This document shows positions 5,685-25,293 of a DNA stretch of 64,000 nt, one piece after another; within the stretch, counting starts at the first letter, position 1; each line of letters starts with the position of its first letter. Both the position numbers and the translations under genes were made by a program. The notes under the pieces were generated by a model. That model was not told where the DNA came from. It did not search any database and saw only the letters and a program-made list of their open reading frames with translations. This DNA is from an uncultured Bacilli bacterium (lineage in GTDB: Bacteria; Bacillota_I; Bacilli_A; RF39; UBA660). The DNA lies in the NCBI GenBank assembly GCA_944331895.1, contig CALVIX010000002.1, forward strand, positions 1 to 64,000, read 5' to 3'.

Positions 5685-5729
5685 TTGACACATGACACCT
5701 TGTCATATATAATGTAACATGTGACTATT
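5685..5729 (+). promoter_or_regulatory. Consensus sigma-A promoter with overlapping operator-like inverted repeat
   Basis: TTGACA (5685-5690), a 17-bp spacer and TATAAT (5708-5713) form a perfect housekeeping promoter. Half-sites TGACACATGACA and TGTAACATGTGAC form an inverted repeat around the -10 box. This is the expected position for autorepression by the TetR protein encoded immediately downstream. Confidence 0.75.
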
Positions 5730-22190: not shown

Positions 22191-23006
22191 ATGCTTTGGA
22201 TCGAAGTTATTATTTTGGGAATCGTGCAAGGAATTGCTGAATTCTTGCCGATTTCTTCTTCTGCTCATTTGATTATTTTTCGAGATGTCTTTGGAATTGG
22301 AAGTGGAATTGGAAGCAATATTTCAATGACGTTTGATATCGCGTTACATTTAGGAACCTTACTTGCGATTTTGATTTACTTTTTTAAAGATTTCTGGAAG
22401 ATTTTAATGAATGGATTTACAAAACCAAAAACGACAGATGGAAAACTTATGTGGTTTATCTTAATTGCGACGATTCCTGCAGCCATTTTTGGAGTATTAT
22501 TTGAAGAGACGATCGAGGAATTACTCCGCGGTAACTTTATCCTAATCGCCTGTGCTCTTATCTTCATGGGAATTATCATCTATTTAGCGGATGTATATTT
22601 TAAGCAGAAAAAAACATTCGAGGATATGAAGTGGACGGATGCTCTCGTGATTGGGTGTGCTCAAGTATTTGCTTTAATTCCAGGTTTTTCGAGAAGTGGT
22701 ACGACGATTTCAGCTGCTCGTGCGATGAAATTAAATCGTGAAGACGCTGCAAAATTTTCTTTCTACTTATCAGCCCCTGTTATCTTTGGAGCATCTTTCT
22801 TAACACTACTCAAAGATAATACAGTGTCACTTATAGCATCTAATGTTGGAATTTTTGCGATTGGAATTTTAGTTGCATTTATTACTGGACTTTTATGTAT
22901 TGAATTTTTAATGAAATATATTAAAAAACACGATTTCAAAATTTTCATGTGGTACCGTGTTGCAATGGGAATTATCGTTCTTTTATGGACGTTATTCGTA
23001 TTATAG
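22191..23006 (+). CDS. uppP: Undecaprenyl-diphosphatase
   Basis: A 271-residue BacA/UppP family membrane phosphatase that converts undecaprenyl diphosphate to the monophosphate carrier. It shows the two catalytic signatures: G-I-A-E-F-L-P-I-S-S-S-A-H near the N-terminus and P-G-F-S-R-S-G-T-T-I in the second half. The ATG at 22191 is preferred because AGGAGAT lies 7 bases upstream; an in-frame ATG at 22182 sits on top of that site. It is preceded by DUF368. Confidence 0.96.
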   Translation: MLWIEVIILGIVQGIAEFLPISSSAHLIIFRDVFGIGSGIGSNISMTFDIALHLGTLLAILIYFFKDFWKILMNGFTKPKTTDGKLMWFILIATIPAAIFGVLFEETIEELLRGNFILIACALIFMGIIIYLADVYFKQKKTFEDMKWTDALVIGCAQVFALIPGFSRSGTTISAARAMKLNREDAAKFSFYLSAPVIFGASFLTLLKDNTVSLIASNVGIFAIGILVAFITGLLCIEFLMKYIKKHDFKIFMWYRVAMGIIVLLWTLFVL

Positions 23007-23029
23007 AGATTGAGATAATCTCTTTTTTT
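23002..23029 (+). repeat. 28-bp direct repeat, copy 1 (uppP terminator)
   Basis: The sequence contains the hairpin AGAGATT-GAGAT-AATCTCT and seven T. An identical 28-bp copy lies at 24082-24109, exactly 1080 bp away, so the pair brackets the pilin gene. It functions as the uppP terminator. Confidence 0.9.
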
Positions 23030-23065
23030 GTGCTTGAAAACGTGTAAAAACAAAAGAAAAATCAC

Positions 23066-23097
23066 TTGACAAATTTGCTTGGGGGGGGGGGTATAAT
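23066..23097 (+). promoter_or_regulatory. Promoter with an 11-G homopolymer in the spacer (candidate phase-variable switch)
   Basis: TTGACA (23066-23071) and TATAAT (23092-23097) are both perfect consensus boxes separated by 20 bases, of which the last 11 are G (23081-23091). A 17-base spacer would need 8 G. Slippage in the G-run would change the spacer and therefore promoter strength. As given, the spacer is too long for strong sigma-A activity. Confidence 0.75.
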
Positions 23098-23142
23098 TCT
23101 ATTATAGAATAGGAAGTGTCAAATAGTTAGGGAGGTAACAAT

Positions 23143-24027
23143 ATGAATGATACAAAAGGATTTACGTTGATTGAATTGTTAGCAGTGATCGTGATATTAG
23201 CGGTAATTGCGTTGATTGCGACACCACTTATCATGAACGTCATTGACGAAGCAAGAATGGGTGCAGCAGAAGACTCAATGAATCATTATATCGACGCAGT
23301 TGAACTATCTCTAGTGAGAGCAGAGGTAACTAGCCAGGAGAATGGCAATAGCTCGATTGATGGACTTTACGAAACTAAAGACGGTAATTTATATATGGAT
23401 GGAAATAAAAAGTTTGATGTAGAGGTAAAAGGAACAGCGCCAGCAGATGGTAGCGAAATTTACATCAAAGACAAAAAAATAGTAAATGCTCACTTTACTT
23501 TTTCTGGATATCAGATGAATTATACAAAACCTGGTGAAAACTTGTTATTAGGAACCAAAACAATGGAGCACAATGATGAAGTTTTTGTAATCGACGGAGA
23601 AATGATAGACGAAACTATGGATGGCAATAAAGTATTAAAAACCAGTGGAGCTTGGCGCGGCTATAAATTTAGATTTAATAAAGTAGCACCACGTGTTGGA
23701 ATTAAAGTAGGAGATACTTTAACGTATTCAATTTATGTGAAAACAGATGCAATTCCAACGAAAGATGTTTCATTGGATTTTTATGTTTGGAATGATTCAA
23801 ATAATAGTCTTACATATAGTGGAACAAGAATAAAAACGATTTCAATGGAAGATAGCATGCAATGGCAACAAATTAGTTTTACATTTGTCGTTACAGAAGA
23901 TTTATTAGAAGCAACTGCCATGAGAATTGAATCGGATTATTATGAAAATGAGGATTACACTACTAGTCAAGCCAATGTATTGTTTAGTTCTCCTAAACTA
24001 GAGTTTGGATCAAAAGCAACTCCATAG
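23143..24027 (+). CDS. Type IV pilin-like protein with carbohydrate-binding-like C-terminus
   Basis: A 294-residue prepilin. A short leader M-N-D-T-K-G is cleaved before F-T-L-I-E-L-L-A-V-I-V-I-L-A, the class III signal for the prepilin peptidase, with Glu at +5. After the helical stalk and a short variable section (to ~130), residues ~140-290 form a beta-rich domain. It begins N-L-L-L-G-T, contains V-G-D-T-L-T-Y-S-I-Y-V-K-T-D and ends L-F-S-S-P-K-L-E. That layout is seen in jelly-roll carbohydrate-binding modules and phage tail adhesins. This suggests an adhesive pilus subunit, though the ligand is unknown. It stands alone, with its own promoter and terminator, 28 kb from pilBCD. Confidence 0.85.
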   Translation: MNDTKGFTLIELLAVIVILAVIALIATPLIMNVIDEARMGAAEDSMNHYIDAVELSLVRAEVTSQENGNSSIDGLYETKDGNLYMDGNKKFDVEVKGTAPADGSEIYIKDKKIVNAHFTFSGYQMNYTKPGENLLLGTKTMEHNDEVFVIDGEMIDETMDGNKVLKTSGAWRGYKFRFNKVAPRVGIKVGDTLTYSIYVKTDAIPTKDVSLDFYVWNDSNNSLTYSGTRIKTISMEDSMQWQQISFTFVVTEDLLEATAMRIESDYYENEDYTTSQANVLFSSPKLEFGSKATP

Positions 24028-24043
24028 TGTTTGGTTCAGGAAC

Positions 24044-24073
24044 TTTAATTCTGTGAAATTTCACGGAATTAAA
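24044..24073 (+). repeat. Near-perfect 30-bp palindrome after the pilin gene
   Basis: The 15-base arms TTTAATTCTGTGAAA and TTTCACGGAATTAAA pair fully with one G-U and no loop. There is no T-run directly after. It could be a processing or attenuation hairpin, or a recombination or operator site. The true terminator is the repeat copy just downstream. Confidence 0.7.
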
Positions 24074-24081
24074 ATTAAATG

Positions 24082-24109
24082 TATAGAGATTGAGATAATC
24101 TCTTTTTTT
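24082..24109 (+). repeat. 28-bp direct repeat, copy 2 (pilin terminator)
   Basis: Identical to 23002-23029. It terminates the pilin transcript and is followed immediately by the promoter of the TtcA-like gene. Confidence 0.9.
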
Positions 24110-24110
24110 A

Positions 24111-24119
24111 TGATATGAT
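24111..24119 (+). promoter_or_regulatory. Extended -10 promoter of the TtcA-like gene
   Basis: TGA-TATGAT directly behind the terminator T-run, 16 bases before the start. Confidence 0.55.
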
Positions 24120-25014: not shown

Positions 25015-25018
25015 GAAG

Positions 25019-25183
25019 ATGCTAGAGGGATAAAGATTAAGAAAAAACTCTAAAATATAACGATTGGGAATCTAATTGAAATACGGTGTTGAAAACTTGC
25101 CCTTGTGAGCAAGGATCCTAATGTGTTTCATGTGATGCCCACCTGGGAGACTGGGTTTTATCGTTAACTGTCCTTCTAGCATT
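25019..25183 (+). ncRNA. ssrS: 6S-like regulatory RNA (candidate ssrS)
   Basis: A ~165-nt gene-free stretch folding into one long irregular hairpin. ATGCTAGAGGGA (25019-25030) pairs fully with TCCTTCTAGCAT (25171-25182) as the closing stem. A large asymmetric bubble follows (25031-25057 against 25167-25170). TAACGAT (25058-25064) pairs with ATCGTTA (25160-25166), TGAAATAC (25077-25084) with GTGTTTCA (25123-25130), and the tip is CCTTG-TGAG-CAAGG (25101-25114). A small CCCA/TGGG hairpin lies on the 3' side. Closing stem, open central bubble and length all fit 6S RNA, which traps sigma-A RNA polymerase. The identity rests on architecture, not on a database match. Confidence 0.55.
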
Positions 25184-25198
25184 TATATTGTATGTAAC

Positions 25199-25289
25199 CT
25201 TATCAAGAGTGGTGGAGGGATAGGCCCTGCGAAACCCAGCGACCTACCATAGTGTGTGGTGCTAACCTACGGGAAACCGAAAGATGAGG
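25199..25289 (+). promoter_or_regulatory. SAM-I (S-box) riboswitch
   Basis: A classic S-box aptamer. The P1 stem pairs CTTATC with GATGAG, and the conserved core includes ATCAAGAG, GGTGGAGGGA, GGCCC and GAAACCC, with later GGGAAACCGA. It precedes metK, so SAM would end transcription when abundant. Confidence 0.96.
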
Positions 25290-25293
25290 AGTG

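Follow-up and report, generated by a model that had tools for sequence, protein, structure and literature searches.

In the group of uncultured Bacilli examined here, slippage-driven, phase-variable promoters appear to control surface-protein repertoires, and the site described below would be the single representative of its genome, a reading to which we assign a probability of about 0.83. This site lies in a stretch of 64,000 nucleotides, here called the window, and contains a run of 11 consecutive G (G11) within the promoter of a gene encoding a type IV pilin-like protein. Judged by the closest named relatives, the source bacterium is RF39-like, its exact order being assigned tentatively. 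It is proposed that the promoter is of the sigma-70 type and that G11 serves as its switch through replication slippage, in that gain or loss of G would change the spacing between the -35 and -10 boxes and, in turn, the transcription of the surface protein. Based on the spacing rule of such promoters, the sequenced 20-bp state is predicted to give little or no expression (OFF), and tracts shortened to G7-G9 (spacers of 16-18 bp) would be ON. In related genomes, many such promoters, each located before its own surface-protein gene, could give rise to combinatorially variable cell surfaces.

The G11 promoter and its pilin gene

The following features were identified in the promoter-pilin unit:
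23066..23071, + strand: -35 box TTGACA, perfect consensus (direct sequence reading)
23072..23091, + strand: promoter spacer, 20 bp (direct reading)
23081..23091, + strand: G11 tract, the proposed slippage site, with best expression predicted near G7-G9 (spacer 16-18)
23092..23097, + strand: -10 box TATAAT, perfect consensus (direct reading)
23130..23135, + strand: Shine-Dalgarno sequence GGGAGG, 7 nt upstream of the ATG (direct reading)
23143..24027, + strand: type IV pilin-like protein, 294 aa, N-terminus GFTLIELLAV (profile matches)
23539..24024, + strand: C-terminal region (residues 133-294) of this protein, with weak similarity to CBM4_9/cenC and phage tail-fibre domains

Positions 23066-23097 read TTGACA-AATTTGCTT-GGGGGGGGGGG-TATAAT, and the 20-bp spacer is composed of AATTTGCTT and the G11 tract at its end. 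Direct reading bore out an earlier note on this DNA, which had described two perfect boxes, G11 and a 20-bp spacer, and which had also claimed that this is the sole long G or C homopolymer of the window; no other G or C run in the 64 kb exceeds 5 nucleotides. Perfect TTGACA-N14-22-TATAAT pairs occur just twice in the window, the second being at 5685 with a spacer of 17 bp. Under a zero-order model, 0.0015 runs of G or C of at least 11 are expected per 64 kb, and four overlapping matches to G8 were observed versus 0.09 expected from dinucleotide shuffles. When both strands of the draft genome (1.12 Mb, 13 contigs, completeness 83%) were searched, G11 was again the only run of G9 or longer, and the length of the tract is far above chance for the host genome.

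The downstream gene starts with ATG at 23143, and its protein begins MNDTKGFTLIELLAVIVILAVIALIATP. The prepilin N-terminal methylation motif in this 294-aa protein was matched by Pfam N_methyl (PF07963, E 4.9e-8) and by TIGR02532 (2e-7). A hydrophobic N-terminal helix covering residues 9-44 is predicted by an AlphaFold model that was made without homologues (mean pLDDT 46.6) and from which this helix alone was used. Given the weak resemblance to CBM4_9/cenC and tail-fibre domains, it is plausible that the window pilin binds sugar via its C-terminal domain. When 291 family genomes were searched with the full-length pilin at E 1e-25, close homologues were not found. The same genome contains 14 other pilin-like matches, and no G tracts were found upstream of these genes, the promoters of which are ordinary.

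The unit is flanked by uppP (BacA family) and, downstream, by a gene for a PP-loop ATPase, and several repeats and hairpins are present between these genes:
23002..23032, + strand: first copy of a 31-bp repeat, which resembles a terminator (an AT-rich hairpin with a T-run) and follows uppP
24041..24076, + strand: near-perfect palindrome of 36 bp, a strong hairpin after the pilin gene and possible terminator
24082..24112, + strand: second copy of the 31-bp repeat, sharing 97% identity with the first

The promoter-pilin unit lies between these two direct repeats, which have no further copies genome-wide, as would be seen after insertion or duplication of a promoter and its gene. In 80 related loci compared by synteny, uppP never stood beside the PP-loop gene; the relatives did not retain this neighbourhood, and no empty insertion site was found. 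Folding of the palindrome together with the terminator that follows it was far better than that of shuffled sequences (z -6.4). Further along the window, a 6S RNA (25016-25186) is directly followed by a SAM riboswitch (25197-25290) upstream of metK (Rfam).

Recurrence of G-run promoters and exclusive use of G

The distribution of such promoters was examined by using a strict pattern, TTGACA-N3-14-G7-N0-10-TATAAT, which demands perfect boxes and at least seven G within the spacer. This pattern was present in 41/291 genomes of the same family, with a maximum of 21 sites per genome. A second, overlapping sample gave 48 positive genomes out of 288, and the richest of them contained 35 (G299) and 32 (G315) sites. 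At the level of the class, 24 of 395 genomes were positive, including 18 (among 341) outside the family that were spread over six other families, and one further family emerged from a phylum-wide draw that overlapped for the most part with the genomes already sampled. Similar G-run promoters number in the hundreds among relatives and are mostly located ahead of surface-protein genes.

A reversed control pattern was found in none of the genomes of the 291-genome and 288-genome samples, and a version of the strict pattern with a C-run was absent from all 262 family genomes in which it was sought; it follows that in these promoters the non-template strand always carries the G run. The bias toward G is complete, despite differences among genera in the letters that flank the run and in where it lies, and may offer a clue to promoter function or to the polarity of slippage. 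Additional types of G-run promoters with other -35 and -10 letters, such as TTTGACAAATATGC-Gn-TATCCT and TTGCAATATGCACAC-Gn-TATTATATACC, were detected (G012 and G001; loci L240-L250), which means that the strict pattern undercounts them.

Two possible sources of these tracts were considered and rejected. MutS_I was found in 41 of the 42 genomes examined, whether rich in G runs or not, so that loss of MutS does not account for the long tracts and slippage is not boosted in this way. A phage origin was also rejected, as a search of 2.9 million viral contigs with the strict pattern yielded no more than 21 stretches; these were mostly G7 in DNA of higher GC content and shared no gene type.

Genes downstream of G-run promoters

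At the window locus and at 130 distinct sites that were read together with their first downstream ORF, a recognisable -35 box precedes the G tract and a recognisable -10 box follows it. By a simple hydropathy rule, 104 of the 120 classifiable downstream genes encode a pilin or a protein with an N-terminal signal or anchor (7 with the pilin motif and 97 with a signal/anchor and an otherwise soluble body), whereas in related loci both classes combined made up 97 of 701 background ORFs (Fisher P 4e-57, with sites within one genome being non-independent). Exported genes were the majority in 34 of 40 genomes. Among the downstream families recognised by Pfam and NCBIfam are BspA leucine-rich repeats, camelysin/SipW-type proteins, InlB-like repeats, PARCEL repeats and pilins. 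A sugar transferase, a glycosyltransferase and UDP-galactopyranose mutase are among the exceptions and could have an influence on surface glycans; a few downstream genes are not surface-related (e.g., 0/4 in G240).

Inspection by eye of further sites gave a comparable picture. Nine of 12 class-wide loci (L271-L282) precede signal/anchor proteins, several of them with a lipoprotein-type cysteine. Most of 40 stretches around G9+ runs that failed the strict pattern (five genomes) showed an exported gene and a near-consensus -10 box, such as TATTAT, TATCCT or TATACT, among others. A dense group of seven same-direction G-run promoters was observed within 19 kb of one contig (G291 contig 6, 8.3-27 kb; L335-L339), where each of the five that were read precedes a gene for a secreted protein.

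Variation in spacer and tract length

Across 0.9 Mb of related loci, 22 ordinary TTGACA-TATAAT pairs have a spacer between 14 and 22 bp, and in 18 of these it measures 16-17 bp; the suggestion in the earlier note that loss of three G from the window tract would give the ideal spacing is thus sound. The spacers of G-run promoters range from 15 to 25 bp, except for a single spacer of 10 bp; the most frequent length is 19 bp, and the majority fall at 18-20 bp. The runs comprise 7-16 G and end 0-10 bp from the -10 box.

Promoters that are identical outside the G run were then grouped within one genome, and the length of the run was found to differ in 22 of 29 such groups from relatives, each species being represented by one genome. 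Since the lengths differ with identical flanks, the G run changes faster than its surroundings, and these changes shift the spacing across the range in which sigma-70 promoters are sensitive. In G299, 12 of the 13 listed copies of one promoter are G8 (spacer 15) and one is G10 (spacer 17), and in G315 spacers of 15, 16 and 17 bp occur in 7, 2 and 2 copies, respectively. The genes behind these near-identical promoters form large paralogous families of anchored proteins in both G299 (L304-L314) and G315 (L315-L325). Constant length was seen in other sets, with G9 in eight of eight identical promoters of G119 and in all five listed for G355, which is not expected from free slippage alone, although an assembly consensus can mask variation. 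The sets of spacers are offset in a lineage-specific manner.

It was also observed that 22 of 100 G-run sites lie within 200 bp of a contig end, versus 2.5 expected, and that some contigs terminate inside the run. This pattern would fit length heterogeneity but was rejected as proof of it because repeats also break assemblies.

Alternative explanations

Simple slippage does not call for the complete preference for G over C, which hints at a function of G on the non-template strand. The run might then be a fixed regulatory or structural element whose length differences would be neutral, for instance a site for protein binding or a spacer that is stiff or forms a G-quadruplex. The promoter sets of constant length also speak for such an element. 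However, both the number of G (7-16) and the distance to the -10 box (0-10 bp) vary, which would not be expected of a fixed binding site; the flanks remain identical where lengths differ, and the resulting spacers span the range to which sigma-70 promoters respond; a fixed element is thus considered unlikely. The same strand preference bears on a sequencing or assembly artefact, in which poly-G miscalls would have lengthened a shorter run. Homopolymer lengths are indeed unreliable in metagenome assemblies, and the excess of contig ends near the runs could be viewed in the same light. Yet an artefact would affect both orientations, and C-runs are absent from promoter spacers, so the exclusive occurrence of G on the non-template strand argues against it. 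Moreover, dozens of independent assemblies have runs that separate the two promoter boxes of exported genes, and an artefact appears very improbable.

With regard to the window locus, the G tract could be real and the promoter weak or decaying, leaving the pilin gene as the relic of an acquired cassette without a working switch. The single G-run promoter in the genome, its 20-bp spacer, the flanking 31-bp repeat found only twice in the genome and the lack of close full-length pilin homologues among the 291 family genomes would all agree with this idea. On the other hand, the 294-codon ORF is intact, the boxes are perfect and the Shine-Dalgarno sequence is good, and retention of G11 is not expected of a decaying promoter; a relic therefore has a low probability, similar to that of a fixed element. 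A slippage-variable pilin promoter, as put forward in the earlier note, is supported by the recurrence of the architecture (41/291 genomes), the empty reversed and C-run controls, the linkage to exported or pilin genes (104/120) and the length differences between otherwise identical promoters (22/29). The mechanism proposed there is very probably right, and its scale was understated. Under this reading, the window locus itself would be expected to switch, with slippage occurring in living populations and altering transcription there, and a role in adhesion or evasion may be envisaged.

Comparison with known systems

In Neisseria meningitidis, a poly-G tract of 9-11 G between the -35 and -10 boxes of porA gives graded expression of a surface protein (PMC3639595). 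The present promoters resemble porA in having homopolymeric G between both boxes, whereas porA concerns one Gram-negative outer-membrane porin, and the window tract precedes a pilin gene in an uncultured Bacilli bacterium whose relatives have tens of independent genes of this kind per genome. In the porA strain studied, 11G is the high state (PMC3639595), in contrast to the low state predicted for G11 here; presumably, the fixed part of the spacer differs.

The earlier note regarded this mechanism as mainly Gram-negative, leaving out the vlp and vmm examples from mycoplasmas (PMC10502178). Each surface-protein gene of the Vlp system of Mycoplasma hyorhinis is described as having a promoter poly-A tract with gene-by-gene ON/OFF switching (PMC10502178, citing Citti and Wise 1995). 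Similarly, the relatives G299, G315 and G119 have several surface genes, each with its own homopolymer promoter, but the window genome has one G9+ run rather than several such genes. Unlike Vlp, which involves poly-A and lipoproteins, a G tract and a pilin are found here, and the genes of the relatives belong to many unrelated families dispersed genome-wide. In the Vmm system of Mycoplasma mycoides, a surface protein is switched when the number of repeats in its promoter spacer changes (PMC10502178), although the repeat is a dinucleotide, unlike the present G tracts, and one gene is involved.

Slippage is also known to control pili. In the gut commensal Bifidobacterium breve, G-tract slippage controls sortase pili, with measured population heterogeneity, and further G-tracts in promoter spacers were mentioned by the authors (PMC9187656); the tract studied differs from ours in being intragenic (frameshift), in another phylum and linked to sortase pili. 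Phase variation of the pil1 pilus of Streptococcus gallolyticus, a member of the Gram-positive Bacilli, is based on repeat slippage (PMC3894217) but involves GCAGA repeats in a leader peptide and attenuation rather than promoter spacing. Literature searches on phase variation in RF39, homopolymers in uncultured Firmicutes and SSRs in gut metagenome-assembled genomes, in which subscription papers were incompletely covered, found no report.

Implications for uncultured Bacilli

Promoter slippage as a mechanism is already known, and its genome-wide, multi-family use for switching surface proteins in an uncultured Bacilli lineage appears to be undescribed. It is possible, although this is held only tentatively, that tens of unlinked and in part paralogous surface genes, each with a G-tract promoter and mostly off the optimal spacing by at least one base, leave one or a few members ON per cell in a large group of uncultured Bacilli with reduced genomes. 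Such a repertoire would be the slippage counterpart of antigenic-variation repertoires.

If the slippage reading is true, promoter-slippage phase variation would extend from a few pathogen loci to a widespread uncultured lineage with tens of such promoters per genome, and the cell surfaces of these bacteria would be randomised cell by cell. Because the DNA signature is simple and exact, the predicted ON/OFF states could be read from existing metagenomes, so that switching in vivo, and the selection acting on it, would become testable without culture.
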